A stretch of DNA of 64,000 nt from Nitrospira japonica (GTDB lineage Bacteria > Nitrospirota > Thermodesulfovibrionia > UBA6902), in assembly GCA_020723105.1 (NCBI GenBank), contig DYJL01000004.1, forward strand, positions 1-64,000, in the 5' to 3' direction. The notes under the pieces were generated by a model, which worked only from the letters and a program-made list of their open reading frames with translations, did no database searches and had not been told where the DNA came from. Positions 21,673 through 42,273 of this stretch are shown in pieces; the stretch's first letter is position 1; each line of letters begins with the position of its first letter. A program made the position numbers and the translations under genes.

Positions 21673-21718
21673 ATATATCTTATTGTAATAACTGCAGAAG
21701 TTATGGAGGCAATTACAC

Positions 21719-23362
21719 ATGGTATACAAGCATTTAAAAACAGCAGTTCTTTTATCAGTTATTTTTTTAGTTTCAATAGTAAGTACTGCCTTTTCAAGCG
21801 AAACATACAGAGTAGGTGTGAATGATATACTCGAGATAAGAGTACTCGACCATCCTGAACTCACTATTCCTACTACAGTTTCAGCAGATGGCTCTATTAC
21901 ATATCCATATTTAGGAAGCATTAATGTGAAGGGGAAGACATTGATAGAAATCAAAGATGAGATAACAAAAGGACTCAGTGAGGGATATATCAAGTATCCG
22001 GTTGTTACAATTTCAATTGTTAAATCTTTGAGCAGAAAAGTATATATGTATGGTTATGTTACTCTGCGTGGAGCAATAAGTTATGAGGAGAACATGACAG
22101 TGCTTATGGCCTTATCAATGGTTGGCGGGGTTTCCGCCGAAGGGTTGAATGGTAAGCTGACGATCAAAAGAAAGCAGAGGGATAGATTGGAGAGCTATAA
22201 AAATGTCCTGGAAGCAAGATTAATAGAAGGGTTGTTCGAGAAAAAGGAAATTGAAAATATGCTGCTTCTCCCAGACGACATATTAATTATTGAGCGCAGT
22301 AAAACTTTTTTAATCCAGGGTGAGGTTGCGCAGAGGGGCCGGTTTAATCTGGAAGATGGCATGACTATAAGAAAGGCATTGTCTTTAGCTGGCGGGGTAA
22401 CTCCAGATGGCCGTTACGGGACAGTTAAGGTGATGCGAACAAATGAAGGACCGCAACGGGATAAAAATATTATTGAAGCCAAACTGAATGATGGTTTGAT
22501 AGAAAGTAAAGAAGTTGGTGATACACTTCTTCAACCTGACGATATGTTGATAGTTGAACGCAGTAAAACCTTTTTGGTCCAGGGCGAGGTTAATACCAGA
22601 GGCAGATTTGCACTTGAGAAAGATATGACAGTTGTAAGGGCGCTGTTACAGGCTGGAGGCGTATCAGTTGAAGGTTCATTCGGCAGAATAAAGTTGAGAC
22701 GCAAAGTAGAGGCAGACAGCGGGAGTTACATTGATATTGCAGAGTCCAATATTAATGATGGAGCAATAGAGAGTAAAGAAGTTGAAAATATGCTGCTTGT
22801 CCAGGATGACATATTAATTGTAGAACGTAGTAAAACTTTTTTAATCCAGGGCGAGGCTGCAAACCGTGGCCGATTTAGAATTGAAAAAGATATGACGGTG
22901 TTAAGGGGTTTGTTACAAGCCGGAGGTGCAACAAACGATGGTTTATTTGGTAAGATAAAACTGAGGCGTAAGCAAGAGAAAGCACCTTGGGGCTATACAG
23001 ACATTGCAGAATCAAATCTCAATAACGGAGTAATAGAGAATAAAGAAGTAGAGAATACCATTCTTAACCCTGATGATATACTGGTTATTGAGAAAAATAA
23101 AACATATTTCATTTATGGAGAGGTTAACAGAACAGGAGAATTCGTTCTTAAGGATGAGATGACAGTTTTTAAAGCTTTGACAATTGCTGGCGGGCTTACT
23201 AAATTTGGTTCTAAAGGGCGGGTTAAAGTATTAAGGTCGGATGATAAAGAGGCCGTTGAGATAATCAAAGTCAAACTTAATGAAATTATTGCTGGAGATA
23301 CTAATGCAGATGTCAAGCTTCAGCCGGGAGACATTATAATCGTATCTGAAGGGATTTTTTAG
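21719..23362 (+). CDS. Wza-like polysaccharide export protein with five SLBB units
   Basis: A 547-residue exported protein. A signal peptide ends near STAFS (no lipobox Cys), a Poly_export domain starts at YRVGVNDILEIRV, and five SLBB-like units follow. They are anchored by the recurring ERSKTFLIQGEV at about 22028, 22292, 22556, 22823 and 23090, a period of 88-89 residues. Wza-type proteins form the periplasmic and outer-membrane conduit for capsule or exopolysaccharide. Many have two or three SLBB domains, so this is a long version. The units are alike at DNA level too, which suggests recent internal duplication. It lies just upstream of the Wzc-like gene. Confidence 0.9.
   Translation: MVYKHLKTAVLLSVIFLVSIVSTAFSSETYRVGVNDILEIRVLDHPELTIPTTVSADGSITYPYLGSINVKGKTLIEIKDEITKGLSEGYIKYPVVTISIVKSLSRKVYMYGYVTLRGAISYEENMTVLMALSMVGGVSAEGLNGKLTIKRKQRDRLESYKNVLEARLIEGLFEKKEIENMLLLPDDILIIERSKTFLIQGEVAQRGRFNLEDGMTIRKALSLAGGVTPDGRYGTVKVMRTNEGPQRDKNIIEAKLNDGLIESKEVGDTLLQPDDMLIVERSKTFLVQGEVNTRGRFALEKDMTVVRALLQAGGVSVEGSFGRIKLRRKVEADSGSYIDIAESNINDGAIESKEVENMLLVQDDILIVERSKTFLIQGEAANRGRFRIEKDMTVLRGLLQAGGATNDGLFGKIKLRRKQEKAPWGYTDIAESNLNNGVIENKEVENTILNPDDILVIEKNKTYFIYGEVNRTGEFVLKDEMTVFKALTIAGGLTKFGSKGRVKVLRSDDKEAVEIIKVKLNEIIAGDTNADVKLQPGDIIIVSEGIF
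22028..23356 (+). repeat. Five tandem SLBB-coding repeats
   Basis: Units begin at about 22028, 22292, 22556, 22823 and 23090 (264, 264, 267 and 267 bp steps). Units two to four are the most alike: stretches such as GTAAAAC(T/C)TTTTT(A/G)(A/G)TCCAGGG(T/C)GAGG recur with few changes. The first and last are more diverged. Such repeats are prone to recombination that would lengthen or shorten the protein. Confidence 0.85.
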
Positions 23363-23372
23363 GAAAAAGATT

Positions 23373-24926
23373 ATGACAAATCAGAATTCGTATACGTTAA
23401 GGGATATTTTAAGGATTTTTTTCTCTCATAAGATTTTTTTTGTGGTTATTCCTGCTGTATTGGTTATTGCGGCTTATATCAGATATGAGCTTCAAACTCC
23501 CATGTATGAAGCAAGTGTAAGAATGTTTGTAAAAGGTGAAAAAAAGACAGAGGCAGAGTTTTATGTGGGCATAGGCAAGCTTAGCCATGTTGGTGAACAT
23601 GTAGGCCTCATAAGATCTAATACAGTATTGGGAAGGGTAGTTGAAGTGCTTAAACTTTATGACCGTCCCGTTGATTATGAAAAGGCTTATGCCTCTTCAC
23701 TTAAGAGGGCTTTTATTGATTATAGTCTTGATAGAAGTGAAGCTCAAACAAATCTGAATATTCGATTTGCAAGAGCGATTGGCGAACTGAATGCGAATAT
23801 GGTTATAACTCCGGATAATGAATCTAATATGCTTACTATCAATGTTACAGATTTCAATCCGGCTATCGCAACAAAAACTGCTAATTCGATAAGCCGCTCA
23901 TATGTAATTTTTGATCTTGAGCAGCAAATAGAAGAGCTGAAACTTAAATATGGTGAAAAGAATCCAGAGGTATTGCAGTTAAAAGACTATATGAATGAAT
24001 TCAAAAAGACCCTCCATGGCAATCTTATTCCTGATATAGAAGCATTCGGACCGGCAAGTATAAAAATAGTTGCACAGGCAGAGGGAGCAGCCTTAAAGAC
24101 GAGTATACCCAGAAACGTTCTCCTTATTTTTTCTTTTTTTACCGGTATATTCCTTGCCATTATTTTTTCTGCCATTTTTGAATATACAGGCCATACCTTC
24201 AGAACACCCAAAAAAGTTGTAGAACACCTTAATCTTCCATTATTAGGCTCTATTCCTAAAAGAAAATTAACGAAAAAGACTAAGGACGATAGTCAGCCTA
24301 CAGACGATCAGAAAACGTTTCAGGTCCTTACGGAACAGCTAACTCTATTGACAAGAGATAAAAATTTAAAAACTATTTTGATAACAGATGTTGAAGGATC
24401 GCAGGAAACACCTGTTATAAATGCAAACATAGGTCTTTCATTTGCACATGAAACCGGGCGCAGGACGTTAATTATTGATGCTGATTTACATAACTCTTCG
24501 TTATCTAAAATGTTTAACATTACCGATAACGGTCTGGGACTTGCTGATATTATAGAAAGTAAGTCTTCTATTATGCATGTCGTTCACGATTTGGGGTCTA
24601 ATCTGTATTTTATACCTGCTGGTATTACATCAGCGAACCCTGTAGTGCTTTTAGATTCTCCGGAAATGTCTGAATTATTAAAGAGAGCTAAAGAGGAATA
24701 TGATTTGATATTAATCAATTGTCCGGATTTAAGGAATTATACAGATCCTGTAATCCTTTCTTCTTATATTGACGGGCTTATCCTTGTTGTCAATGAAGGT
24801 AAAGTGAGGCGGCAGATTCTTGATAATGCAGTTAATCCTCTTAAGCAGAAAGGTGTCAATATAATCGGCATAATTTTTAATAATCGCACATATGCCATTC
24901 CTGATTTTATCTACAGATTGACATAG
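23373..24926 (+). CDS. Wzc-like chain-length copolymerase with degenerate tyrosine-kinase domain
   Basis: A 517-residue inner-membrane protein. A Wzz domain lies between two transmembrane helices (about 17-38 and 246-268), with a KYGEKNPEV stretch near the second. A BY-kinase-like cytosolic domain (about 310-517) follows. The fold is recognisable (TLIIDADLHNSSLSKMF at 366-382, GLADII), but the ATP machinery looks broken: the Walker A site is DVEGSQETP at 339-347 with no GK(S/T), and the Walker B aspartate is Asn449 (LILINCPD). No terminal tyrosine cluster is visible. It probably sets chain length or docks partners without phosphorylating them. It starts 10 bp after the SLBB gene. Confidence 0.88.
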   Translation: MTNQNSYTLRDILRIFFSHKIFFVVIPAVLVIAAYIRYELQTPMYEASVRMFVKGEKKTEAEFYVGIGKLSHVGEHVGLIRSNTVLGRVVEVLKLYDRPVDYEKAYASSLKRAFIDYSLDRSEAQTNLNIRFARAIGELNANMVITPDNESNMLTINVTDFNPAIATKTANSISRSYVIFDLEQQIEELKLKYGEKNPEVLQLKDYMNEFKKTLHGNLIPDIEAFGPASIKIVAQAEGAALKTSIPRNVLLIFSFFTGIFLAIIFSAIFEYTGHTFRTPKKVVEHLNLPLLGSIPKRKLTKKTKDDSQPTDDQKTFQVLTEQLTLLTRDKNLKTILITDVEGSQETPVINANIGLSFAHETGRRTLIIDADLHNSSLSKMFNITDNGLGLADIIESKSSIMHVVHDLGSNLYFIPAGITSANPVVLLDSPEMSELLKRAKEEYDLILINCPDLRNYTDPVILSSYIDGLILVVNEGKVRRQILDNAVNPLKQKGVNIIGIIFNNRTYAIPDFIYRLT

Positions 24927-25025
24927 TTATGCAAAAGTAAAATTGTGACATGAGGTGAAGAAATCTGAACCTTTTACTTATTATCGTAAAATTTTATAAG
25001 TAGTCATTTAACATAGGAGACTGTA

Positions 25026-25943
25026 ATGAAGATATTGGTAACTGGAGGTGCAGGGTTTATAGGTTCACATATCGTTGATATGCTTATTGACAGCGGCCAT
25101 GAAGTCGTCATAGTGGATGATCTATCTTCAGGCAGGGAAAGCAATATCAATAAAAAAGCCAGATTTTATAAGTTAGATATTCAGGACTCACTATTAGACG
25201 ATATCTTCAGTAAAGAGCGGCCTGATTATGTAAACCATCATGCTGCGCAAAAGGATGTTCGACTTTCAGTTACTGATCCTATTTATGATGCCAAAATAAA
25301 TATATTGGGTACAATCAATATTCTTCAGAACTGTATCAAGCATAAAGTAAAGAAAGTAATTTTTGCCTCAACTGGCGGTGCTATTTATGGGGAACAAGAT
25401 GTTTTTCCCGCAACTGAGGCTCATCCTGCAAGGCCCATTAGTCCTTATGGTATAACAAAACTCGTGGCAGAACATTACCTTTATTATTATAAAGTCATTT
25501 TTGGCTTGGACTATACAGTCCTTCGCTATTCAAATGTCTACGGGCCCCGTCAGGATCCTTTCGGTGAAGCAGGGGTTGTAGCTATTTTCATCCAGAAGAT
25601 GCTTAAGGGAGAACAACCAGTTATCAATGGTGATGGGGAACAAACAAGGGATTTTGTTTATGTTGGAGATGTTGCAAGAGCTAATATTTTAGCAATGCAA
25701 GATGATATCTCAGAAAACATATTCAATATTGGGACAGGTGTCGAAACTTCCATTAAACAGACTTTCAACTGCCTTAGAGAGATTATAGGACCATCTATTC
25801 AGGAGAAGCACGGTCCTGCAAAACAAGGTGAACAGTTCAGGAGCGTAATTGAATGTACGAGGGCAAAAGAATTTTTAAAATGGGAACCTGTAACTTCACT
25901 TATAGATGGTCTACGCAAAAGCTGCAAGTACTTTCAGCTATAA
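25026..25943 (+). CDS. NAD-dependent sugar epimerase/dehydratase (GalE-like)
   Basis: A 305-residue extended short-chain dehydrogenase with NAD loop GGAGFIGSH at 7-15, FASTGGAIYG and the catalytic Tyr141-xxx-Lys145 (YGITK). The substrate part (YSNVYGPRQDP, FVYVGDVARA, FNIGTG) is typical of UDP-glucose 4-epimerase-like enzymes, including UDP-glucuronate and UDP-GlcNAc 4-epimerases. A good GGAGA ribosome site precedes the start. The exact sugar is unknown. A second GalE-like enzyme at 44701 suggests different substrates. Confidence 0.88.
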   Translation: MKILVTGGAGFIGSHIVDMLIDSGHEVVIVDDLSSGRESNINKKARFYKLDIQDSLLDDIFSKERPDYVNHHAAQKDVRLSVTDPIYDAKINILGTINILQNCIKHKVKKVIFASTGGAIYGEQDVFPATEAHPARPISPYGITKLVAEHYLYYYKVIFGLDYTVLRYSNVYGPRQDPFGEAGVVAIFIQKMLKGEQPVINGDGEQTRDFVYVGDVARANILAMQDDISENIFNIGTGVETSIKQTFNCLREIIGPSIQEKHGPAKQGEQFRSVIECTRAKEFLKWEPVTSLIDGLRKSCKYFQL

Positions 25944-26086
25944 GTCGGAAAATAGAGTTATTAAACTGATAATCCCAACTTACATATCACAGCAATTATT
26001 TAACTGTCAGTAATACTGTTTGAACTTATTAGAGAGTTACGATTGCCTTCATTATGTAACTGAGAAGGCGGAGCAGTGCCTCAAAG

Positions 26087-27577
26087 ATGGAATCTGTTGT
26101 AGGAGGTAGTTTGGTATTTGAGAAGCTGTTAAAGAAAGAGACCGTAGTTGAGTCAGCTACATTTACATTAATTTTTCTGATAATTGAGAGAGTCATTCAG
26201 ACCATAAGAGGTATTGTCTTTGCCCGGATGCTGGGCCCGAGTGAATTAGGCGTATATACATTATCATTCTTCCTTTTTTCTATCATGGTCACGTTTGCAA
26301 GGTTAGGTATTCCCTCTTGTTATGGACGCTATATCCCTCAATATGAGAAAAAAGGTTTGGTGAAAGGTTTTTTCAGGAAAAGTTATTTGTTAGCGGTAGG
26401 ATCAGGAGTATTTTTTACTGTTTTGCTCCTGTTTTTTTCAACGCCTATATCTGAATTGTTGTATTCTAAAACTCAATACAGCCATCTGATTATATTATGT
26501 ACCCTATCAATACTTCCTTTTGTATTATATGAAAACTTTCTTGCTTCTTTTAATGGGCTGAGGGTTTTTAAAGTGGGAGTCTTAATGCGGTTTAGTCAAT
26601 TTCTCATTTTTACTGCAACGGCTGTTGGATTAATAATTTTTTACCCTAAAGCAGAAGTTGTAGTTGCAACCAATTTGCTTTCGTACATACTTGTATCGTT
26701 TGTATTTGGTTTTATAATCTGGAAATATATATTGCATTCTACTGTTCAGAAGATAGAAATACACGAAGAAAATTTTTATGGCAAAATACTTAAGTATTCC
26801 ATCTGGTTTATGGCCGTGCCTATTTTTGATAATTTGTTTAATTATACAGATCGTTTTATACTTAATAAATTTTTGGGGTTAGAAGAAGTGGGCATTTATT
26901 CAACAGGCATTAATGTATCCAATCTTATCCTGATGTTTGGTTTAGTTGTCGGCAGTATCATAACACCAAGTCTAAGCCACTTATGGGAGAATGGGGAGAA
27001 GCATAAAGTAGTCAAACTTTTAAACTTATGTGTCAAAGTTAATATTGTCTTTCTTCTGTTTATTTCTGTAATCATATCGTTATTCAAGGAAAAAATTGTT
27101 TTTATTCTGTATGGCCAGCCTTATATGGAGAGTGTATCAGTTATAAATATATTATTAATATATTCTCTGCTATCAAGTACGTACTGGACAATTTGGGGAT
27201 ATACAAGCATGATTGAAAAAACATATATCCCGCTTATAAGTAACTCTATTGGTTTTGTCTGTAATGTAGTTTTGAATTATATACTAATCCCGATTTTTCA
27301 TATGAAAGGGGCTGCAATAGCTACAACAATCTCCTTCATTATATGTTTTGTCATAATAAATATCTGGATGTTCAGGGAAGGCTTCAAAATAAGCTCTACC
27401 ACTATCTTTTTATATTTAATTCCGGGCAGTCTTATTATGGGCAACATAATTATGAGTATTATTCTGATCACATTAGTTGCAATGATCATAAAAACAAATC
27501 TTATTATTAGTGAAGATGAAAAAAATATAATACTGGAACAAGTGAGAAAATCAGTTTCCAAATATCGAACAGCTTGA
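26087..27577 (+). CDS. Oligosaccharide flippase (Wzx/MATE-like) 1
   Basis: A 496-residue membrane protein with about 12-14 hydrophobic helices and the flippase landmarks FARMLGPSELGVYTL near the start and GAAIATTISFI in a late helix. It would move lipid-linked repeat units to the periplasmic face. Start choice is open: ATG 26087 has a weak GGCGGAG upstream, while TTG 26111 lies four bases after a perfect AGGAGG (26101-26106) in the same frame. It ends 10 bp before the phosphodiesterase-like gene. Confidence 0.9.
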   Translation: MESVVGGSLVFEKLLKKETVVESATFTLIFLIIERVIQTIRGIVFARMLGPSELGVYTLSFFLFSIMVTFARLGIPSCYGRYIPQYEKKGLVKGFFRKSYLLAVGSGVFFTVLLLFFSTPISELLYSKTQYSHLIILCTLSILPFVLYENFLASFNGLRVFKVGVLMRFSQFLIFTATAVGLIIFYPKAEVVVATNLLSYILVSFVFGFIIWKYILHSTVQKIEIHEENFYGKILKYSIWFMAVPIFDNLFNYTDRFILNKFLGLEEVGIYSTGINVSNLILMFGLVVGSIITPSLSHLWENGEKHKVVKLLNLCVKVNIVFLLFISVIISLFKEKIVFILYGQPYMESVSVINILLIYSLLSSTYWTIWGYTSMIEKTYIPLISNSIGFVCNVVLNYILIPIFHMKGAAIATTISFIICFVIINIWMFREGFKISSTTIFLYLIPGSLIMGNIIMSIILITLVAMIIKTNLIISEDEKNIILEQVRKSVSKYRTA

Positions 27578-27587
27578 GATTGTAAAC

Positions 27588-29225
27588 ATGGACAGGAAGA
27601 ATATCATAATAGGTTTAGACGGGGCCACATGGGAGGTAATAGATTATTTTATACATAAGAATGTGATGCCCTCTTTAAAGAAGATAAAGGAAATGTCGAG
27701 CTATGGAGAACTGTCATCAACGATTGTCCCGATAACTCCTTCTGCATGGGCTTCCATGATAACAGGTTGCATGCCTTCAACGACAGGTATTTTTGATTTT
27801 TTAAAGTCCGTAGATGGGACCTATAACTGGAGGCTGGTTAACAGTCAGGATATTAAAGTCCCTACTATGGCTAATATACTTTTAAGTTATGGCAGAAAGG
27901 TTAGTCTGATAAATGTGCCAATGACATTTCCTCCAAACCAGAATGACGGTTATTTACTTACCGGATTATTGACTCCGATAGGAGAAAAAAATATTTCCTA
28001 CCCTGAAAATCTTGTAGAGGAATTAAAAAAGCATGGCATAAATTATCGTATTGATACCGAACTCCATGCGAATCGTTCAAAGTTGTTTACTGATCATGAT
28101 TATGAGAAGACAGTGTTTGGAAACGGCGCCGAAGTTTTTTTCCGGGATCTTAATGAACTTTTAGAAATACGTAAGAAGACTGTTGATTATCTCATGCATG
28201 AGAAAAACTGGGACTATTTTATGTTTGTCCTTATTGGCATAGACAGAATCCAGCATCATCTGTGGGACTACATTATGCAGCCAGAGATAGATAGCAGCAT
28301 GACAAGAAATATAGGGAACTACTTCAGGCGAGTGGACGAAATTATCGGAGATATATATGAAAACTTTAAAAATAATGCAAATATTTTCATAGTTTCAGAT
28401 CACGGGTTCTCAAAGCTTCACGGTATATTCATGATTGATGTCTGGCTCCTGAATAAAGGTTATTTAAAACTTAATCTGAGCAAAATGCCCTGGATAAAAA
28501 GCATTATAAAGAAGATGTTAAACGGATTAAATATCAACCCCAAAAAGCTGTTTGGCAATTTACTGAAGAAAGAAAATATAAGTAGATTGATGATATCGTC
28601 TCATAATATAGATTGGTCCAATACAGTGGCTTACAGTACCGAAACGAATGGAATCAATATTAATTTAAAAGGCCGGGATATATTGGGAGTTGTTGAGAAG
28701 GAGAAATATGATGAAATAAGGGATGTAATAATTGATGAACTGATGAATGTTACTGATCATGCCGGAGTAAAAATTGTTAGAAAAGCACTAAAGAAAGAAA
28801 ATATTTTCAAGGAAGGTGATTTGAATCACGTACCTGACATTATTATAGAATTCTACAACGAATATCTTTTCCATACCCGTGGTTCAAATAATCTTTCAGA
28901 AGATCAGGATATGTTTATAAATCATGAATGGCAAAAGGGATTTCATATACGGGAAGGTGTCTTTCTGGCGACTGGCGAGGATATTTACAGAGGGAAAAAA
29001 GTTGAGGGCATTAAAATGGAGGACATTCTGCCTACATTGCTGGCGCTTAATAATGAAAAGATACCGACTCATCTCGATGGCAGAATTGTCAGGGAGATTA
29101 TCAAGAGGGAAATCAATGAGAAATATACGGATTTTAAATTCAATCATGATAGTAATTCATATGAATATGCCGAAGAAAGCGGCAATGAGATAATAGAGAA
29201 ACTGAAATCGTTAGGATATTTATAG
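27588..29225 (+). CDS. Alkaline-phosphatase-superfamily phosphodiesterase, second copy
   Basis: A 545-residue relative of the protein at 3602. IIIGLDGAT carries the first metal Asp, ITPSAWASMITG the nucleophile region, VSDHGFSKLHG the middle metal site, and a late HEWQKGFH the last His. The PxxHGI signature of the family reads PSTTGIF here, so its His is replaced. Cytosolic by sequence, it may cleave a phospho-linked sugar or lipid intermediate. It lies between a flippase and a methyltransferase, which ties this poorly understood family to polymer synthesis. The C-terminus is unusually charged. Confidence 0.83.
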   Translation: MDRKNIIIGLDGATWEVIDYFIHKNVMPSLKKIKEMSSYGELSSTIVPITPSAWASMITGCMPSTTGIFDFLKSVDGTYNWRLVNSQDIKVPTMANILLSYGRKVSLINVPMTFPPNQNDGYLLTGLLTPIGEKNISYPENLVEELKKHGINYRIDTELHANRSKLFTDHDYEKTVFGNGAEVFFRDLNELLEIRKKTVDYLMHEKNWDYFMFVLIGIDRIQHHLWDYIMQPEIDSSMTRNIGNYFRRVDEIIGDIYENFKNNANIFIVSDHGFSKLHGIFMIDVWLLNKGYLKLNLSKMPWIKSIIKKMLNGLNINPKKLFGNLLKKENISRLMISSHNIDWSNTVAYSTETNGININLKGRDILGVVEKEKYDEIRDVIIDELMNVTDHAGVKIVRKALKKENIFKEGDLNHVPDIIIEFYNEYLFHTRGSNNLSEDQDMFINHEWQKGFHIREGVFLATGEDIYRGKKVEGIKMEDILPTLLALNNEKIPTHLDGRIVREIIKREINEKYTDFKFNHDSNSYEYAEESGNEIIEKLKSLGYL

Positions 29226-29296
29226 TGAGTTGCGCTGGTTTATTAGTGTAACGGTCAGATTTAAAACAAAGAATATATATGTCCGGGTAGAAGCGA

Positions 29297-30076
29297 ATGG
29301 CAACTGATAATAAGAGAATTACAACCAAGGAGCAGTGGAATAATGTTTATAGCGCCTTATATGAAAAACTGCCAATAACCCCTACAGATAAATCCTGGAT
29401 TGGTTATCAGATTTATACTGAACTTATCAAATATTTTGAAAAAGATAGTACAAAGAAGTTTATAGAGGCAGGTTGCGCACCTGGTGAGTATGGGATTTTC
29501 TTTGCAAAATTGTTTGAACATGAGATATTTGGATTTGATTATTCACCCGAGGGATTGGCCCTTACAAAATCTAACTGGGAGTTATCAAACATCAAAGGGA
29601 ATATTATTGAGGCTGATATATTTGATTTACCCGATTACTATCAGAATAATTTCGATGTTGTTTTTTCTGCAGGTTTTATAGAGCATTTCAGGGATCCGCA
29701 GGAGATTATAGATATTTTTCACTCGCTTCTGAAGAAAGATGGATTGATTGTTACAATTATACCGAATACTTATAGTTGTTTAAATATGACCCTTAAAAAA
29801 ATATTCTCAACTGATAACTACCTGAAAATAAAGGACACTCATATACCAATAGATTTCGAGACGTTACTGCAATATCATTGCAGATTTGATATTTTATGTG
29901 CAAAGAGGATTGTCGGTTTTTTCCCGGACTCCATTTTTTCGTCTCGTAATATATTGTCTAAGATGATGAGCAGAATATTAAATAAAGCCTTGATTATTCC
30001 AGCCCGGCTGAACAGGGTATTACAATATAATTATCTTTCATCCAATTTTATGATAATTGGAAAGAAAGCTGCTTGA
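29297..30076 (+). CDS. Class I SAM-dependent methyltransferase
   Basis: A 259-residue Rossmann methyltransferase. Motif I is FIEAGCAPGEYG (55-66), motif II-like FGFDYSPEGL, and FDVVFSAGFIEHFRD is the motif IV region. The second half has no family I can name. It probably methylates a sugar or lipid of the local polymer and could cap chains, though this is inferred from position only. Confidence 0.85.
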   Translation: MATDNKRITTKEQWNNVYSALYEKLPITPTDKSWIGYQIYTELIKYFEKDSTKKFIEAGCAPGEYGIFFAKLFEHEIFGFDYSPEGLALTKSNWELSNIKGNIIEADIFDLPDYYQNNFDVVFSAGFIEHFRDPQEIIDIFHSLLKKDGLIVTIIPNTYSCLNMTLKKIFSTDNYLKIKDTHIPIDFETLLQYHCRFDILCAKRIVGFFPDSIFSSRNILSKMMSRILNKALIIPARLNRVLQYNYLSSNFMIIGKKAA

Positions 30077-30164
30077 AGCTTTATATTGTTGCCACATTTT
30101 CTGGCACTAAGGGGAAATAACGTTTTTCAATTTACAATAAAAGAGTATTTTACGGAAGGAGAAA

Positions 30165-31865
30165 TTGATGAATCCATCATTAGTCAGAAATATAATTTAT
30201 CCGGCTTATAGATTTATACAACGTGACGGAGTCTTTTCAACTCTTAAGGAGTTGGAGAGAAATCAATGGTTATCGGGAAATGATTTGAAAAATCTACAGG
30301 TTGAGAAGTTAAAACAATTGCTGGATTATACCTATAAAAATGTCCCTTATTACACTCAATTATTTAATGAATTAGGTATAAAACCGGACAGTATCCATAG
30401 TCCGGCTGATTTCCGTCAGGTGCCAATATTGACAAAAGAAATAATCAGAAATAATGGTAACAAGATGATAACTACTGACCCCTTACGGAAAGGTGCTGTT
30501 GCAAACACGGGGGGATCGACAGGAGAAACACTTTACTTTTATAAGGATGTGGGAAGCCGCAACTATAATATAGCTTGTGATATCAGGTTAAATAAGTGGT
30601 ACGGCATAAATATAGGAGATAAAGAAGCTGTTTTTTGGGGCATGCCGTTTGATGTCAGCAGTACACGTAAAATAAAAGATAACTTTAAAAGATACATGCA
30701 GAATATCCTGCATCTTTCAACCTTTGACATGTCTGAAAAAACAATGCTGAAATATGCTGATATACTACGTGGCTTCAAGCCAAAAATTCTGCGGGGATAC
30801 CCATCAGCCTTATTTGCTTTCGCATATTTTTTAAAGAAGAACTATATAACTGATATTAAACCAGAGATAATTATCTCTACTGGTGAAAAATCTTTTCCCT
30901 TTCAGAAAGAATTGATGAAAGATGTATTTGGCTCCGAAATATATGAAAAATATGGCAGTAACGAGTTCGGGATGATTTCTCAGGAATGTGCTGAGCATCA
31001 TAAGTTACATGTTATCAGTGATATGAATTATGTTGAGTTCATTAAAGATAACAGACCTGCGGAAAAGGGGGAACTTGGAGAGATAGTTGTAACAAGCTTG
31101 CATAACTATTATATGCCTTTCTTGCGTTATAAAATTGGAGATTTGGGGGTGTTATCGGATATTCAATGTAGCTGTGGCAGGGGGTTCCCCTTGATGGAAG
31201 AGGTTAGGGGCCGGGCTTTCGATACGATAATAACTCCAGAAGGTAAAGCCTTAGGAGGATTTTTCTGGACGTTTATTTCACGTGCTGTTCCCGGAATAAA
31301 ACAGTTCCAGATAGTGCAGAATGAAAAAAATAGTATAGATTTTAAAATTGTACCAGAGAGTTCTTTCAGCATTGAATCAACAAAACATTTAGAGAAGGAA
31401 ATCAAAGAAGCAGCAGGTCAGAACTTTAAGGTTAATTTTAAGGTTGTTGATGAAATCCCCTTGACTCCTTCAGGCAAGTTCAGATTTATTGTTTCAAAAA
31501 TCTCGGAAGAGCGTTTGGTTATGAAATCAAAAATTCACAAGGCCGTGGTTACTGAAATTAACCCGAATCATCTGGATTGTATTACAATTGATGAAGATTT
31601 GATGAAAAAAGTAAATTTAAAAGAATTTGAAAAGGTGCTCGTAGTTGATAATACTAACGGTGCCCGTTTAGAGACTTATGTGATCAAAGGGAAGAAAGGT
31701 TCCGGAGTTGTTTCCATAAATGGTGCAAGCACCAATCTGATAAATAAAGGCGATGAGATTATCGTTATGTCTTTTACCTGGACGGATGAAGTTATAGTGC
31801 CACAGGTCATTCTTGTTGATGCAGAAAATAGATTTATCCAGTTTTTGGAAGGCGCTGAGTTTTAG
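30165..31865 (+). CDS. PaaK/CapK-like adenylate-forming ligase fused to a PanD-like domain
   Basis: A 566-residue fusion. Residues about 1-445 match the phenylacetate-CoA ligase/CapK family, with adenylate loop NTGGSTGET at 114-122, EKYGSNEFG, YKIGDLG and the C-terminal LTPSGKFR. Residues 453-566 match aspartate 1-decarboxylase. In E. coli numbering it keeps Lys9 and His11 (Lys456, His458), Arg54 (501), Thr57-Tyr58 (504-505) and Asn72 (519). However, the self-cleaving Tyr22-Glu-Gly24-Ser25 reads His469-Leu-Asp471-Cys472. Normal pyruvoyl formation is therefore doubtful, unless Cys replaces Ser. Met453 (31521) has GGAAGAG nine bases upstream, so the PanD part might also be made alone. I infer a role in activating or attaching an amino acid to the polymer. 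Confidence 0.87.
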   Translation: MMNPSLVRNIIYPAYRFIQRDGVFSTLKELERNQWLSGNDLKNLQVEKLKQLLDYTYKNVPYYTQLFNELGIKPDSIHSPADFRQVPILTKEIIRNNGNKMITTDPLRKGAVANTGGSTGETLYFYKDVGSRNYNIACDIRLNKWYGINIGDKEAVFWGMPFDVSSTRKIKDNFKRYMQNILHLSTFDMSEKTMLKYADILRGFKPKILRGYPSALFAFAYFLKKNYITDIKPEIIISTGEKSFPFQKELMKDVFGSEIYEKYGSNEFGMISQECAEHHKLHVISDMNYVEFIKDNRPAEKGELGEIVVTSLHNYYMPFLRYKIGDLGVLSDIQCSCGRGFPLMEEVRGRAFDTIITPEGKALGGFFWTFISRAVPGIKQFQIVQNEKNSIDFKIVPESSFSIESTKHLEKEIKEAAGQNFKVNFKVVDEIPLTPSGKFRFIVSKISEERLVMKSKIHKAVVTEINPNHLDCITIDEDLMKKVNLKEFEKVLVVDNTNGARLETYVIKGKKGSGVVSINGASTNLINKGDEIIVMSFTWTDEVIVPQVILVDAENRFIQFLEGAEF

Positions 31866-32066
31866 TAACTTCTGTTTGTTATTGGAAAAGGTTGTTGTAA
31901 CAGCATTTGTTCTCCTCTTTTTCATTTAAGGTCTTTCAGCCGACATGGAAGCCTGTTTCAGAATTTCTACAATCGATATTTTTCTAAAGACCAGTTTAGC
32001 CGTTTAAGCTGTTTAAACCGTTTTTTTAATTCCTATCTTTAATCTTATGTATAAATTGTTAAGAAG

Positions 32067-33170
32067 ATGAATATTAAACTTGAAAACAGATTTGAAAATA
32101 TAGGACAGGAGAAATGGAATGCTCTGGTTTTAAAGAGTAACACCAATACAGTTTTTCAGACATATGAATGGCATTATTCGTGGTGGAAAGTATTCGGAAC
32201 GGATAAAGAGTTATTTATTATTTATGTGAAGGATGGAAACCTTTTGTCAGGCTTGGCGCCTCTTATGATTTGTAAGGACAAGGGAGGCAAAAGAGTTTTA
32301 AGGTTCGTTGGACATGGGAGGTCAGATTATTCAGACTTTATTTATATTAATGAAGAAATTCTGGAGAGTATTCTTGAGTTTATCAAACATCAATCATCAA
32401 AGTGGGATGAAATAGAATTGCACAGGATTCCGAGTTATTCTGCATCTTCAAAACTTATTGAGAATATTTGTAAGGTTAAGAAACTATACTGCTTAAGAGA
32501 TAAAACAGCAATATGTTCTGTTCTGGATATCAGAAAGGAGCCGGATTTTGCTCAGAAAATTCTGAACAAGAAGAAACTGATACAATACAAAAATTATTTT
32601 GTAAAAAAAGGGAATTACAAGGTTAGCCATCTCACGGATAAATTTGAAATTATGAAACATCTCCAATCATTCTTTCAGCAGCACATAGAGAGATGGGGTG
32701 CAACAGAAACACAAAGTCTTTTTTTAGACCAGAAGAACTGCAGTTTTTATAAAGAGATAGTAATGAATATGACTGATAAGGGATGGATTATCTTTACAGT
32801 TATAGAATCGGACGGGAAACCTGTAGCTTTCCATTTTGGATTTACATACAACAACAGGATTATTTTTTATAAGCCTACTTTTGAAATTTCTATGTCTAAA
32901 TATTCACCTGGGCAGGTACTTATAAAAGAGCTTCTGGATTTTGCAGTCTCAAACAATTTCGATGAATTTGATTTTACGGTTGGAGATGAGACGTACAAGA
33001 GAAGGTTTGCCAATAAATTTGGAGAAAATATTTCATATAAGATTTTTCAGAAATACAGAATATATTGGTTTTATAAAAAGATGAATACTATCAGGGAAAA
33101 TATGAGAAAACATAAGATAGGAAGTTCCGTGTTGATATTTGGTAAACAGCTTAAGGAGAAAATCTGTTAA
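32067..33170 (+). CDS. GNAT/FemAB-like acyl- or aminoacyl-transferase (BioF2/CelD-like domain)
   Basis: A 367-residue protein. TVFQTYEWHYSWW near the start and the C-terminal GNAT core (VAFHFGFTYNNRIIFYKPTF, FDEFDFTVGDETYKRRF) match the Acetyltransf_6/CelD/FemAB-related group found in exosortase and cellulose loci. It would acylate, or add an amino acid to, a sugar or peptide amine. The adjacent ligase-PanD fusion makes an amino-acid decoration plausible. I do not consider it the PanD maturation factor PanZ, which is far smaller. A 201-bp gap upstream holds no gene or clear signal. Confidence 0.8.
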   Translation: MNIKLENRFENIGQEKWNALVLKSNTNTVFQTYEWHYSWWKVFGTDKELFIIYVKDGNLLSGLAPLMICKDKGGKRVLRFVGHGRSDYSDFIYINEEILESILEFIKHQSSKWDEIELHRIPSYSASSKLIENICKVKKLYCLRDKTAICSVLDIRKEPDFAQKILNKKKLIQYKNYFVKKGNYKVSHLTDKFEIMKHLQSFFQQHIERWGATETQSLFLDQKNCSFYKEIVMNMTDKGWIIFTVIESDGKPVAFHFGFTYNNRIIFYKPTFEISMSKYSPGQVLIKELLDFAVSNNFDEFDFTVGDETYKRRFANKFGENISYKIFQKYRIYWFYKKMNTIRENMRKHKIGSSVLIFGKQLKEKIC

Positions 33171-33196
33171 AACGAATTTTGTAATGAAAAGGTAAT

Positions 33197-34321
33197 ATGT
33201 CCAAAATCAATTTACTTTATATTATAAACTCTCTTACTTTGGGCGGTGCTGAAAAACAGGTAGTGACTTTGCTTAACCATCTTGATAAGGAAAGATACCA
33301 TGTTGTAGTTTGCTGTATCCGCAGCGGCGGGCCCCTGGAAGATGAAATAAGGGATGAAAACGTAGAGGTAATATATTTACGGATGAGGCTTCGCTACTTC
33401 TTTATTGCAATTTACAAGCTGGTGCGTCTGATGAAAAAAAAGAATATTCAGATTGTTCATACACATCTCTACACGAGCAGTTTTTGGGGCCGTATAGCTG
33501 CCTGGATTGCGGGTGTGCCTATAGTTATTGCTACTGAACATGGCCGGGGGTTGTGGAAAAAGGGAAGGCATTTAATGTTTGAACGGATTGCAAACAGGTA
33601 CACCGATATGAGGATTGCAGTTTCCGAAGATGTGCGCCAGATTCGCATCAATAGAGAACATACTCATCCTGAAAAAGTAATGACAATTCGAAATGCTATT
33701 AACCCGGATGACTTTATGGTTTCTGATTCGGTCCGGCAGGGTAAAAGAAAAGAGTTAGGAATAAAAGATGACGAGTTAATTGTCGGGACTGTAGCCCGTT
33801 TGGACCCTGACAAAGGTCTGCACTATTTGCTGGAAGCTGCCGCTCATGTGGCAGAGGCAATTAATGATGCACGCTTTATTTTGGTTGGAGATGGTGAGTT
33901 AAAACAATATTTGGAGAATTATGCCTTAAAACTGGGTATTGCTGATAAAGTAATTTTTACCGGATCCCGCACGGATATTGCGGAATTCCTGAGTATTATG
34001 GATGTATTTGTCAATTCGTCAATCCGTGAAGGTATTCCAGTTTCTTTATTAGAAGCCATGGCTGCAGAAAAGCCTGTAGTTGCAACAAAAGTAGGAGGAA
34101 TTCCAGAGGTGATCAACGATGAATCAGTTGGCATACTGGTCCCCTCAGAAAATGTCATGGAACTGACCGGTGCTATTATTGCCCTTCTTAATAATAAAGC
34201 TTTGAGGGTAAGAATGGGGCTGAAAGCCCGTGAGAGGATACAGAGTCATTTTTCTGCAAATATGCAGGCCAGGCAGATAATGGGTATATATGAAGACCTG
34301 TTAATGAAGAACTCGATATGA
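33197..34321 (+). CDS. Family 4 glycosyltransferase
   Basis: A 374-residue GT-B enzyme. The acceptor half begins INSLTLGGAEKQVVTLL, and the donor half contains VARLDPDKGLHYLLEAA, FTGSRTDIAEFL, NSSIREGIPVSLLEAMA and AEKPVVATKVGGIPEVI. The EGxPxxxxE motif that anchors the nucleotide sugar is complete. It adds one sugar to a lipid-linked intermediate, with donor unknown. It overlaps the deacetylase start by 4 bp (ATGA). Confidence 0.92.
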   Translation: MSKINLLYIINSLTLGGAEKQVVTLLNHLDKERYHVVVCCIRSGGPLEDEIRDENVEVIYLRMRLRYFFIAIYKLVRLMKKKNIQIVHTHLYTSSFWGRIAAWIAGVPIVIATEHGRGLWKKGRHLMFERIANRYTDMRIAVSEDVRQIRINREHTHPEKVMTIRNAINPDDFMVSDSVRQGKRKELGIKDDELIVGTVARLDPDKGLHYLLEAAAHVAEAINDARFILVGDGELKQYLENYALKLGIADKVIFTGSRTDIAEFLSIMDVFVNSSIREGIPVSLLEAMAAEKPVVATKVGGIPEVINDESVGILVPSENVMELTGAIIALLNNKALRVRMGLKARERIQSHFSANMQARQIMGIYEDLLMKNSI

Positions 34322-35532
34322 GAGATAAGATTCATAGCGTACCGGTTATTATGTATCATTCTATTGGTCCTGATAATCCGGAATGGCTCTGGAATTATCT
34401 GATTACGCCTGTAAAGATATTTGAAGAACAGGTAAAGCTGCTTTCAGATAAGGGTTTCAACACTATCACTTTACAGGAACTTTATGATTATATGAAGTTT
34501 TGCAAAGCGATACCTGACAATCCTATTGTGCTTACTTTTGATGACGGCTATCTGGATAACTGGGTTTACGCATATCCTATCCTGAAGAAATATAGGATGA
34601 AGGGGACTATTTTTGTTAATCCGGAATTCGTGGACCCTACTAAAGACTACAGGCCTAATTTAGAAGATGTATGGAAAAATAGATGTATGGAGTCAGATCT
34701 GGATACAAAAGGATTTTTATCATGGCATGAGATGAGGATGATGGAGGAGAGTGGGACCATTGATATTCAATCACATTCGATGTCTCACACATGGTTTTTC
34801 TGCGGCAATGAAATCATAGACTTTCATTATCCTGGCAACAAGAAGTACCCATGGCTTTTCTGGAATGCTTTACCCGAAAGGAAAAGCTATTATTTGAGAG
34901 AAAATCAGGAGCATTTTGTATCCTATGGCATACCAATCTATCAACATGGCAGATCCCTCGGGATAAGGAGATATTTCGAGGATGGGGATTTGAATAACTA
35001 TTTGGTGGATTTTGTTAAGCAACGAAATGACAATTTTTTTAATCGGAAGGACTGGAGAAATGAACTGTTCGCACGGGTGGAGATTTATAGATCAAAGAAC
35101 AGTTTAAAGGACAGATATGAGATAGATAAAGAATTGGAGGAAAGGTATAAATATGAATTAATTGAAAGCAGGAGGATATTGGAAGAGAAATTGAATAAGA
35201 GAATCCAATTTCTATGCTGGGCCGGAGGAGCGTTAAATGACAAGGCCTTGGAAATAGCTAAAGAGGCTGGATATCTTGCGACTACATTATTCTATAATGA
35301 TACGAACAGGAAAAATATTTTTGGAGAAGACCCATCTGCGATTAATCGGACCGGCTGTGTTTCTGAATTTTATTGGAAGAACAAATTCATATCATATACT
35401 GACCCCGGTCATTTCATGGCGAATATAAAAAACTTTTCTGGCAGGAGGATATATCTTTGGGTTCTCAGATTGTACAAATTGAAATACTTGTTGAGATATT
35501 TTCTTGTGAAGGGATTGAAACGAAGAGGGTAA
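34318..35532 (+). CDS. Polysaccharide deacetylase (NodB homology), copy 1
   Basis: A 404-residue cytosolic protein with the NodB fold. VIMYHSIG marks the start, LTFDDGY at 72-78 carries the catalytic base and metal Asp, and IDIQSHSMSHTW is the HxxxH metal motif. A long insertion with many charged residues (about 190-280) separates these from the FLCWAGGALND motif. It would remove acetyl groups from N-acetylated sugars. It is translationally coupled to the glycosyltransferase at 33197 and ends 52 bp before the free panD gene. Confidence 0.88.
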   Translation: MRDKIHSVPVIMYHSIGPDNPEWLWNYLITPVKIFEEQVKLLSDKGFNTITLQELYDYMKFCKAIPDNPIVLTFDDGYLDNWVYAYPILKKYRMKGTIFVNPEFVDPTKDYRPNLEDVWKNRCMESDLDTKGFLSWHEMRMMEESGTIDIQSHSMSHTWFFCGNEIIDFHYPGNKKYPWLFWNALPERKSYYLRENQEHFVSYGIPIYQHGRSLGIRRYFEDGDLNNYLVDFVKQRNDNFFNRKDWRNELFARVEIYRSKNSLKDRYEIDKELEERYKYELIESRRILEEKLNKRIQFLCWAGGALNDKALEIAKEAGYLATTLFYNDTNRKNIFGEDPSAINRTGCVSEFYWKNKFISYTDPGHFMANIKNFSGRRIYLWVLRLYKLKYLLRYFLVKGLKRRG

Positions 35533-35584
35533 CAGCAGAATAAATGTTTGCACGGAAAAATAAATTAGAGGGAGGAGAGGTTAT

Positions 35585-35941
35585 ATGAAATTCAATATAT
35601 TAAAATCGGCAATCTTTAATGCGACGGTTACTGAAGCAGACCTGAATTACATCGGGAGTATTACTATTGATGAAGATTTAACGGAGCGGGCCAATCTGAG
35701 GGCCGGTGAGAATGTCCTGATAGTAGATCATACCAACGGTGCGCGTTTAGAGACATATGTCATCGTAGGAGAGAGAGGTTCAGGTGTGATTTGCATGAAT
35801 GGAGCAGCAGCGCATCTGGTCAAGAAGGGCGATAAAATTACAATAATGACTTTTACTTGGAGTGACAAAGGGATAGTGCCTAATTTTGTGATTGTTGACG
35901 AGGGTAACAAATTTGTAAAATACCAGGAGATAAGTAGTTAA
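35585..35941 (+). CDS. panD: Aspartate 1-decarboxylase-like protein (free PanD module)
   Basis: A 118-residue homologue of PanD, the pyruvoyl enzyme that makes beta-alanine from aspartate. The cleavage site is intact in the E. coli numbering: Tyr22, Gly24-Ser25 ([10 protein letters not shown]). Arg54, Thr57-Tyr58 and Asn72 with Ala-Ala-Ala-His are also present. However, Lys9 and His11 are Ala9 and Phe11, so the substrate-binding N-terminus is abnormal. The fused PanD domain at 31521-31862 has the opposite defects. No panB, panC or panE is nearby, and its neighbours are a deacetylase and an O-antigen ligase-like gene. AGGGAGGAGAGG lies just upstream. Function in pantothenate synthesis is possible but doubtful. 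Confidence 0.87.
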
Positions 35942-36085
35942 GGTTTAATTGTTGAAAGAGTTTTAGCGATTTACTGAAATAACTTTCGTTCTACCTACAG
36001 AATTTTCTCCTCCGAGATACCAGCGATTAGAAAATCAATTTGAGAAAAATAGCAAAAGATGATGTGTTACAAGAAATAGCTTTAT

Positions 36086-37582
36086 ATGAACAGAACATTG
36101 TTTAAATATATTTTCTTAATATTGTTTGTGATAATCAATATATTTGGTATTAATAAGTATATTCCTACTGTAAGTTTGTTGAAATTGTATTTGTTTCTCG
36201 GCGTGGTTTTTGTCTTGCTAATATTTATTATGAAAAATGACCTGGTAAATCTATTATTGCTGTGGTTTGTAGCAGCCATGTTCAAGGAATTAGGTATGAT
36301 ACCTTTGCCTTTGCTTCCGGATATTTTTGCAGACAGAATCGTGTGGGTTTTAATTGTCTTAATCTTTCTGTTCGATGTAGCGTTTAAAAAGACGAGACAG
36401 CTTCTTCCCATTACTGGTACAGAGGTGGTGATGGTGGTGTTTTCTCTGTTTAGTACAATTTCCATGTTTTCATCTGCTTATATTACCAATGAAGATGTGA
36501 AATTTAACTTTTTTGCAAATGGTTATGGAATACCTTTTACAATTTATTTCCTCTCTAAGAATATAGTGGATGATGAAGAGAAAATAAAAAAAGTATTTAT
36601 TTCTTTTGCTGTGGTAGGTTTATACTTAGGACTTACCGGCATATTTGAAATACTGAAGATTGATCAGTTGGTTTTTCCCGGTTATATTGTGAATCCAATG
36701 ATTGGCCTTCATTACGGCAGAGCAAGAGGGCCTTTTCTAATCTCAACGGTGAATGGAGCCGTAATAGGTATGATAATTTTTATGTCAATTCATCTGTTGT
36801 TCAATGAGAAAGGTAGATGGAAAAGATACTTCCTCATTATTACGCTCCTGTGCATGTTTGTTACACTTGTTCTTACTTACACACGCGCATGCTGGATTGC
36901 GTTCTTTATTGCGATATTGATAGTATCGATCTTCATTCCACACGTGAGAAAAATATTTCTTCTTATCTGTGCTGCATCTGTTATCCTGGTTTCTTATGTT
37001 TTTTACCTGCATCCACACTTCAAAATGGCTGAATCAGAACAGCAACTTATCTCTAAAAAAGCTCCAACTACGGAATTGTTTATTAATAGACTTCTGAACA
37101 CAAGCACTATTGAAGGCCGGATAGACTTATATAAGTTAAATTCGAAACTGTTTCTTAAAAGTCCGATTTGGGGTAACGGATACGGGGCCTACGGGAATGT
37201 GAAAGAGGAATTCGAACAAAAAACCCATACAAAAATCTCAAAATATAAATTTATTCAGAAAGGCGCTAAATCGCATGACACCATAGTAGGGATTTTAGTA
37301 GATTTAGGATTGCTGGGGTTGGGCCTTCTAATGTATATTTTCTTTTATTTCTTTAAAGCTATTTTTAGATTGTATAACAAATTACCACAAGACGGATTTT
37401 TAGGAAAGGATCTGGCCGTAATGTTTCTTGGAATGATTATTGTCTTTATAATAAACGTTCAGACGGTTGAGATACGTTTTTTTCTTTTTGTGAACAGCAT
37501 GTTGTTCTCAATTGCCGGAATAGCAGTTGGCCTGTATCAGCGGGTTTCTCAGGGTGAAAAAAGATTGTCGCGGGAGGTTTAA
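36086..37582 (+). CDS. O-antigen ligase/Wzy polymerase-like membrane protein 1
   Basis: A 498-residue protein with about ten to twelve hydrophobic helices. The large periplasmic loop carries STIEGRIDLY and LFLKSPIWGNGYGAYG, the R..ly..al.l....pl.G.G.g pattern of the Wzy_C/O-antigen ligase family, and a conserved His in KSHDTIVGILVDLGLLGL. It would join lipid-linked repeat units or ligate glycans. A 144-bp gap before it holds nothing I can recognise. A second member of the family lies at 51338. Confidence 0.87.
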   Translation: MNRTLFKYIFLILFVIINIFGINKYIPTVSLLKLYLFLGVVFVLLIFIMKNDLVNLLLLWFVAAMFKELGMIPLPLLPDIFADRIVWVLIVLIFLFDVAFKKTRQLLPITGTEVVMVVFSLFSTISMFSSAYITNEDVKFNFFANGYGIPFTIYFLSKNIVDDEEKIKKVFISFAVVGLYLGLTGIFEILKIDQLVFPGYIVNPMIGLHYGRARGPFLISTVNGAVIGMIIFMSIHLLFNEKGRWKRYFLIITLLCMFVTLVLTYTRACWIAFFIAILIVSIFIPHVRKIFLLICAASVILVSYVFYLHPHFKMAESEQQLISKKAPTTELFINRLLNTSTIEGRIDLYKLNSKLFLKSPIWGNGYGAYGNVKEEFEQKTHTKISKYKFIQKGAKSHDTIVGILVDLGLLGLGLLMYIFFYFFKAIFRLYNKLPQDGFLGKDLAVMFLGMIIVFIINVQTVEIRFFLFVNSMLFSIAGIAVGLYQRVSQGEKRLSREV

Positions 37583-37629
37583 TAGATTCAAGAAGTCAAG
37601 ATCGGGTTTCTGGGTCAAGGTTATAAAAA

Positions 37630-38676
37630 ATGATAAAGAATAATCTTAAATCCATCTGCTCCAGGGTGGCAGGAATTCCTGGAATTTACAATTTGATGAG
37701 AAGATATAAGAAGGGATGTACAGTTTTTTTTTATCATGGTGTGGAAAATAAACTGGTTGACCCTCTGTTGCAGGAAGTGCATTTGCCTTTCAGTCAGTTT
37801 GAGAAGCAAGTGAAGTACTTGATGAAGAATTATGAAATTATCTCACTTGATTACCTTTACGACTGTATAATCAATGGATACAAGATAGATCCATCACATG
37901 TTCTGTTAACTTTCGATGATGGGTATAAAAACAATATTGATGTTATTGAGCCTTTTCTGAGAAGCATGAATATACCTTTTTCGGTATTCATATCTACCAG
38001 ACATATTGATACCGGAAAGAGATTCCCTACTTACTATCTGCGCGCGGCCATTCTATATACTGAGAAGGAATATATATCTGTTCCAAGTATAAATAAATAT
38101 CTTGATATGAGCTCTCAGGACAAGCGCTGGTTGGCTATCAGTAATATGGCTGCTGTTCTGAAATCAGTGCCCCAGCAAACAGTGGATTTAATGGTTTCCG
38201 ATCTGATTAAACTGCTTCCTGATGACAGGTGGGTAGAGCTGAATAATCTTTTTATGTCAGATGAACCAATGAATTGGGACGATATAAAAAAGCTGCATAA
38301 ATCAGGGGTAATAATTGGTTCTCATTGCCATGATCATGCTATCTTGCATGATCATCAGAGTAGTAGCGAGATAAATTATCAGTTGAAAACAAGTAAAGAA
38401 CTGATAGAAAAACATTTAGGTGAATGTAAATATTTTGCTTATCCAAACGGCTCAATGAAAAAAATTTCCCTTGAGGCTATGTTAGGGGTTAAGAAAAATA
38501 AATACCTTTTAGGTTTTTCCATAGTTCCGGGAGAGATAGAAAATCCAGCAAATGCATTCCTTCTTCCCCGGATTCTTGCTGTAACTGATTTTGATGAGTT
38601 TAAGTTTCATCTAAGTTCCTGTTCTTTCTACAATAAAAAATATAATGAATGGTCTTATAGTTTTAGTTCAACGTAA
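37630..38676 (+). CDS. Polysaccharide deacetylase (NodB homology), copy 2
   Basis: A 348-residue NodB-type protein. FFYHGVENK opens the domain, LTFDDGY at about 93-99 holds the catalytic Asp pair, and VIIGSHCHDHAIL carries the HxxxH metal motif, with FAYPNGS near the C-terminus. It has no signal peptide. Compared with copy 1 it is shorter and only distantly similar, so different acceptors are likely. Confidence 0.88.
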   Translation: MIKNNLKSICSRVAGIPGIYNLMRRYKKGCTVFFYHGVENKLVDPLLQEVHLPFSQFEKQVKYLMKNYEIISLDYLYDCIINGYKIDPSHVLLTFDDGYKNNIDVIEPFLRSMNIPFSVFISTRHIDTGKRFPTYYLRAAILYTEKEYISVPSINKYLDMSSQDKRWLAISNMAAVLKSVPQQTVDLMVSDLIKLLPDDRWVELNNLFMSDEPMNWDDIKKLHKSGVIIGSHCHDHAILHDHQSSSEINYQLKTSKELIEKHLGECKYFAYPNGSMKKISLEAMLGVKKNKYLLGFSIVPGEIENPANAFLLPRILAVTDFDEFKFHLSSCSFYNKKYNEWSYSFSST

Positions 38677-38738
38677 TATTTCCTGACGTATTACACATAG
38701 GTTTGACAGAAGAATAATTCTATTGTAAGAGCTTGCCA

Positions 38739-39866: not shown

Positions 39867-40067
39867 CAGGCTGCTGAAAAAGTCTGTAATTGTCATTGCG
39901 AGGAGCGTATTTTGCGACGAAGCAATCTCAAACTTATTGATTTATAAAGAAGTGAGTTTGCGGAGTTTATCCCGAGCGGTAAAGAAAGATTGCTTCGCTT
40001 CGCTCGCAATGACAAGCGAGGGACCTGCTCGCAAAGACAGCTAAAATACTTTTTCAGCAATCTGTTA
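39864..40067. mobile_element. MITE-like element, copy 2 (204 bp)
   Basis: Terminal inverted repeats TAGCAGGCTGCTGAAAAAGT and the complement of ACTTTTTCAGCAATCTGTTA bound a non-coding 204-bp sequence. The same element at 372-518 lacks 32 bp and 25 bp of this one. The 25-bp gap is flanked by GCTCGCAA direct repeats and the 32-bp gap by short TTGC repeats, so copy 1 looks like a slippage product. The interior holds GTCATTGCGAG and its inverted partner CTCGCAATGAC (about 39893 and 40003), a palindrome likely to fold strongly in RNA. It supplies the stop codon of the gene before it. Confidence 0.85.
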
Positions 40068-40121
40068 GTGATTATTTTATATGCACTTTTAATATTTTCT
40101 TTTTTTATATGTTGAAAGAGT

Positions 40122-42254: not shown

Positions 42255-42273
42255 AAGCCTTATTCATTAAATA

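Follow-up and report, generated by a model that had tools for sequence, protein, structure and literature searches.

This locus raises the question of why a PaaK/CapK-like adenylate-forming ligase should end in an aspartate decarboxylase (PanD) domain, and what that domain does there. In the window, by which we mean the whole 64,000-nucleotide stretch analysed, the open reading frame 30165-31865 (+) runs without interruption in a single intact frame and encodes the ligase, a short linker and the C-terminal PanD domain:

30168..31865, + strand: ligase-PanD fusion gene, 565 aa, with TTG 30165 as alternative start
30168..31490, + strand: ligase part, with motifs common to all three fusions described below
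31515..31865, + strand: fused PanD domain; Lys9, His11, Arg54, Thr57 and Asn72 kept, Tyr22 and Gly24 lost
31521..31523, + strand: internal ATG, nine bases past GGAAGAG (31505-31511)
31575..31580, + strand: GAT TGT, an Asp-Cys dyad at the position of the PanD Gly24-Ser25 cleavage bond

The ATG at 30168 appears the likelier start than the TTG directly preceding it, because AAGGAGA lies upstream and the proteins of the relatives align from the same Met; the dyad, D471-C472 when counted from the TTG, then becomes D470-C471. In a profile search, residues 451-557 matched PF02261 (E=6e-34, 116.8 bits against a cut-off of 25) and scored 102.6 bits with TIGR00223 (panD), slightly under the cut-off of 106. 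The AlphaFold2 model has a mean pLDDT of 87.8, with lower confidence around the linker and ~90 in the PanD domain.

The same fusion is present in the window genome (G000), in a second genome of the genus (G037, 69% identity) and in one of the same family (G029, 68%), together 3 of 396 genomes of the phylum Nitrospirota. A scan of an 84,980-species genome collection returned it from one species genome only, that of G029 (GenBank contig JACRPZ010000060.1, a groundwater Nitrospirae MAG); among the matches listed in a plasmid search none spanned the PanD part, and a literature search of partial coverage returned no paper on a ligase-PanD fusion. The preliminary description had proposed a ligase-PanD fusion without known parallel, and a genuine and rare fusion is borne out; its presence in three independent genomes rules out an assembly artefact or frameshift as its origin.

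The N-terminal part matched PaaK/CapK-type ligase models, all below their cut-offs. Its best Foldseek match was PaaK1 (2y27, E=4.3e-28), and Foldseek also groups it with BT_0428 and PaaK-family AMP ligases. It has an ANL-type fold with the A3, A5, A7, A8 and A10 motifs, including the C-terminal Lys, and the motifs look intact: NTGGSTGE (P-loop), YGSNEF, RYKIGD, CSCGR, GRAFD and TPSGK with the catalytic Lys, roles that we take from the ANL superfamily at large. With TIGR02155 (PaaK phenylacetate-CoA ligase) the ligase scored 87 bits against an equivalog cut-off of 646, so that by this model it is not a phenylacetate ligase.

The preliminary description had also suggested that a free PanD-like protein might be made, from the internal ATG of the fusion. 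A free PanD is indeed encoded in the cluster, by a gene of its own:

35585..35941, + strand: PanD2, with Tyr22-Ile-Gly24-Ser25 intact and Lys9 changed to Ala, His11 to Phe and Ile86 to Thr

PanD2 matches PF02261 (E=5.5e-40) and TIGR00223 (129.1 bits, above the cut-off), and its AlphaFold2 model (pLDDT 94.6) has the PanD fold, with TM ~0.9 to the E. coli and Mtb precursors. All three fusion genomes encode it (73-78% identity), and all three proteins have the YIGS motif, keeping the whole cleavage site plus Tyr58. Lys9 (codon 35609-35611 in the window) is replaced by A, A and A, His11 (35615-35617) by F, I and L, and Ile86 by T, T and A. These same positions are retained in the three fused domains, where in the window Lys9 is encoded at 31530-31532, His11 at 31536-31538 and Arg54 at 31665-31667. 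The fused domains have changed elsewhere: their cleavage regions read NHLD/CITID (G000), HPFD/SITID (G037) and NHTD/SITID (G029), so that Tyr22 has become H, P and H, Gly24 is D in all three, and Ser25 is C, S and S. The Gly24-Ser25 dyad is thus missing from every one of them (Asp-Cys, Asp-Ser, Asp-Ser), and Tyr58 is Y, Y and F. For comparison we used 71 ordinary PanDs from Nitrospirota, Bacillota and Bacteroidota, in which Lys9, His11, Tyr22, Gly24, Ser25, Arg54, Thr57 and Tyr58 were each present in 71/71. A visibly degraded second PanD-like fragment ~8 kb from an intact panD (L108, G144:C1:1573835-1574047) was left out of this set. None of Lys9, His11, Tyr22, Gly24, Ser25, Arg54, Thr57, Tyr58, Asn72 and Gly73 is absent from both the fused domain and PanD2.

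This division appears to follow the architecture of the enzyme. PanD has four active sites, located at protomer interfaces (PMC4410942); Lys9 is contributed by the other subunit, and Pyr25, Thr57 and Tyr58 belong to the same subunit (PMC3314653), while Arg54 is likewise donated by the neighbour (PMC3314653; PMC6969166). For B. subtilis PanD, strands 2-14 and 82-94 are listed as the face of the pocket formed by the adjacent subunit, together with strand 52-59, which mixes both sides (PMC11808261). From strand position, His11 and Ile86 would lie on the neighbour side. With these two so placed, PanD2 appears to have lost neighbour-side residues only, and the fused domain own-side residues only. 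A rough post-hoc figure for such segregation by side is ~0.001 over 13 positions, a guide only, as independence is assumed and some sides are inferred; moreover, the fusion is known from only three genomes of related lineages, so that the residue pattern is effectively one evolutionary event. Based on this reciprocal pattern, we consider it probable that the fused domain and PanD2 form a composite, heteromeric decarboxylase. The H11A mutant of E. coli PanD is, by the title of its structure (PDB 1pt1), unprocessed, and PanD2, which lacks His11, therefore plausibly depends on the fused domain. Arg54 is kept in PanD2, and Thr57 and Asn72 in the fused domain, though a heteromer would not strictly require them there.

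A less demanding arrangement would have PanD2 working as a homomer, with the dead fused domain joining its tetramer to tether or regulate the ligase and donating no residues. PanD is tetrameric, so an inactive paralogue can co-assemble, the fused domain is well conserved outside its cleavage site, and regulation by a dead paralogue is known from the trypanosome AdoMetDC/prozyme pair (PMC5201418). However, this leaves unexplained why Lys9 and His11, present in 71/71 PanDs elsewhere, are lost from 3/3 PanD2 proteins and kept in the fused domain, and we regard it as unlikely.

The two genes share a common origin. In a maximum-likelihood tree the fused domains and the PanD2 proteins are each monophyletic (100/95 and 100/99) and form sister clades (98/80), which suggests one duplication and one fusion followed by reciprocal loss. 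Their next-closest relatives are free PanDs adjoining TRAP-TAXI transporters (100/99). PanDs of that type, at L055-L059 (G017, G018, G016, G014), keep all catalytic residues; one of them replaces the gatC-linked panD in G016 and G018, and G017 has two copies. In the genus of the window genome the usual site of panD is after uvrD-gatC. The gene is missing there from all three fusion genomes, which contain no PanD other than the fused domain and PanD2. In G037 a remnant survives (L115, G037:C20, ~823-1226) between gatC and a small ORF before yqeY, with the start and end of the gene around a large internal deletion. The sister species G036 has an intact panD (L114, G036:C84, 4099-4449) with nearly identical flanks, so that the loss in G037 is recent and separate from the others. 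All three fusion genomes have panB and panC. In the window genome, phage-type and integrase-like genes, recognised by eye, lie just upstream of the panC region (L109, G000:C50, 3750-6939). Of the other routes to beta-alanine, searches of the three genomes found no PLP decarboxylase, and D-hydantoinase matches below cut-off only. On these data the simplest reading is that the fused domain and PanD2 together probably make the beta-alanine of the cell in place of PanD, although it might instead come by scavenging or another route.

The same losses bear on a further alternative, in which PanD2 without Lys9 acts on a different substrate, such as an aspartyl group carried on the ligase or on a sugar, with the fused domain as its uncleaved partner. 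Lys9 forms an ion pair with the alpha-carboxylate of the substrate (PMC3314653), so its loss could shift specificity, and the genes do sit within a polysaccharide cluster. Yet the loss of the housekeeping panD alongside retained panB and panC points to free beta-alanine as the product, and the sister paralogue retains Lys9; such a change of chemistry is, in our view, clearly improbable.

An acyl shift and self-cleavage at Asp-Cys had been the main idea of the preliminary description. The dyad does lie at 31575-31580, but Asp-Ser in both relatives rules it out as a conserved thioester site; as far as the three sequences go, the conserved change is Gly24 to Asp together with loss of Tyr22, and the Cys is peculiar to the window genome. 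The domain might nevertheless process itself at Asp-Cys or Asp-Ser and be a decarboxylase in its own right, perhaps also made free from the internal Met (Met453). Position 25 is Cys or Ser in 3/3 fused domains, Thr57 and Asn72 are kept, and the E. coli S25C mutant is processed, according to the title of PDB 1pyu, so that Cys at this position is not in itself prohibitive; the Y22F and Y58F enzymes also still process (PMC3975893). Against this, Gly24 is Asp and Tyr22 is lost in 3/3, both being invariant in ordinary PanDs, and one of the three (G029) has Phe in place of the proton donor Tyr58. The internal ribosome site fares no better: the ATG at 31521 is indeed nine bases past GGAAGAG, but the purine motif is not conserved in the relatives (G037 CAGGAGCG, G029 AAAGAGCG), and the internal Met is probably the fossil start of an ancestral free panD (MKSKIHK...). 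The fused domain thus looks processing-dead, and that it cleaves itself is very unlikely. The suggestion that it is a substrate-binding relic holds in so far as processing seems lost; it fails in that the domain is conserved like the ligase and keeps the residues a neighbour would donate. A neutral relic or accidental fusion without a role, to which the degraded cleavage motif and the restriction to three genomes might point, is scarcely credible, given that the domain is conserved to the same degree as the ligase part (67-68% identity vs 65-70%; dN 0.18-0.21, with dS saturated or close to it), that almost every structural column is preserved in it and that three clusters of differing gene order have all retained it, so that by these measures it is not decaying.

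If the fused domain and PanD2 form one decarboxylase, its purpose may be sought in the surroundings of the fusion:

20188..43383, + strand: Wzx/Wzy-type surface polysaccharide cluster that surrounds the fusion
32067..33170, + strand: GNAT/FemAB-like acyltransferase (PF13480)
33197..34321, + strand: GT4 glycosyltransferase of the same cluster
34318..35532, + strand: polysaccharide deacetylase-like protein (PF01522, E=8.4e-21) with TFDDG and HSMSH motifs

The cluster encodes a sugar-phosphate transferase, a Wza-like exporter, a Wzz/BY-kinase, a Wzx flippase, a Wzy/ligase and glycosyltransferases. The deacetylase-like protein has no apparent signal peptide and looks cytoplasmic. Its gene is the sole other one found near the fusion and PanD2 in all three clusters: in G037 and G029 the deacetylase gene lies directly 5′ of the fusion and PanD2 directly 3′ of it in an overlapping stop/start arrangement, with overlapping or abutting stop and start codons on both flanks of the fusion; in the window genome all three genes are present, scattered over 5.8 kb. 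The GNAT/FemAB-like protein is a possible acceptor-side partner in the window cluster only; as a PanZ-like maturation factor it was rejected, being FemAB-like by PF13480 and, in the relatives, not adjacent to the fusion. The cluster of the window also contains a second polysaccharide deacetylase (PF01522, 37630-38676), a large sortilin/BNR beta-propeller-like protein (40122-42254), for which a protein of similar size at L053 1252-3405 may be the counterpart, and a Type I phosphodiesterase/alkaline-phosphatase-superfamily protein (PF01663, 27588-29225) that recurs in fusion clusters (L053 6057-7481) and resembles a protein adjoining an unfused CapK gene at L060.

We propose the following sequence of events for the heteromeric enzyme. 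A single panD would have been duplicated and one copy joined to a CapK-type ligase, after which the two copies lost complementary parts of the active site. PanD2 would cleave itself at Gly24-Ser25 to generate the pyruvoyl cofactor and contribute the same-subunit residues Tyr22, Thr57, Tyr58 and Asn72, while the fused domain would stay uncleaved and, as the neighbouring subunit, give Lys9, Arg54 and probably His11 to the PanD2 site; on its own, PanD2 is expected to be poorly processed or inactive, and the fused domain inactive. Since the latter is part of the ligase, beta-alanine would be produced at the ligase, which would activate it as the adenylate and then form a CoA thioester or transfer it directly as an amide; the acceptor would probably be an amino sugar that the co-conserved deacetylase has unmasked. 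Free beta-alanine would also feed pantothenate synthesis. To this explanation as a whole, two halves of a heteromeric decarboxylase feeding both ligase and pantothenate, we lean slightly. The handover of beta-alanine to the ligase, taken by itself, falls just short of an even chance. A tentative extension, which we hold somewhat less readily, is that a split-gene PanD borne on a ligase replaced the housekeeping enzyme, so that the B5 precursor and polysaccharide beta-alanylation come from one complex. Beta-alanyl decoration of the polysaccharide is in itself doubtful, and deacetylation followed by N-beta-alanylation is our preferred guess for the ligase role. Relatives of PaaK mostly accept aryl acids, which argues against beta-alanine as the substrate. 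The PaaK-family AMP ligases NatL2 and AjiA1 form amides in natural-product pathways, so a carrier need not be present.

If this is correct, the locus offers a clean case of a homomer turned into an obligate heteromer through reciprocal loss of active-site residues. It would tell cis-acting PanD residues from trans-acting ones, the role of His11 in maturation included, and would be a naturally occurring case in which a decarboxylase hands substrate on to an adenylating enzyme. It would also carry a warning for annotation, as the two "panD" genes here would be one enzyme, and a genome without a classical panD may still be self-sufficient for beta-alanine; for the CapK-like ligases that are widespread in polysaccharide clusters it provides a lead on their substrate.

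Among known systems, PanD itself (PF02261, TIGR00223; E. coli, M. tuberculosis) shares the fold, about half of the residues and the active site at the subunit interface, and PanD2 resembles it further in the Gly-Ser cleavage motif and Thr57, Tyr58 and Asn72. Ordinary PanD, known from textbooks as a homotetramer and targeted by the drug pyrazinamide, has every catalytic residue in one gene, whereas here the invariant residues are split over two genes, of which one also encodes a ligase. The structures of PaaK1 (2y27), BT_0428 (4r1l), ClxA (9s45), NatL2 (6tm4) and AjiA1 (6wuq) match the N-terminal 440 residues in fold and motifs, but none has a PanD domain, and the known ones take mainly aryl or other acyl acids. 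In Paenibacillus, PanD is found beside NRPS or adenylation genes (L067, L074), presumably for beta-alanine, although there it is free, complete and unfused: in P. massiliensis (L074, and L077 6422-8396) a complete panD overlaps an NRPS-type adenylation gene that stands alone, the two being a likely beta-alanine activation pair, and in Paenibacillus sp. P96 a complete panD (L067 8007-8378) lies within an NRPS cluster. E. coli PanD requires a second protein, PanZ, for maturation and function, but PanZ is a GNAT protein rather than a PanD paralogue and binds at the interface instead of being a subunit of the tetramer. The sequence pattern of the fused domain and PanD2 would fit the prozyme type, an uncleavable paralogue encoded with its active partner. 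Trypanosome S-adenosylmethionine decarboxylase is a pyruvoyl decarboxylase controlled by such a paralogue, prozyme (PMC5201418); there the fold is unrelated, the effect allosteric and the paralogue unfused, while for the ligase-borne domain and PanD2 we propose a shared active site.
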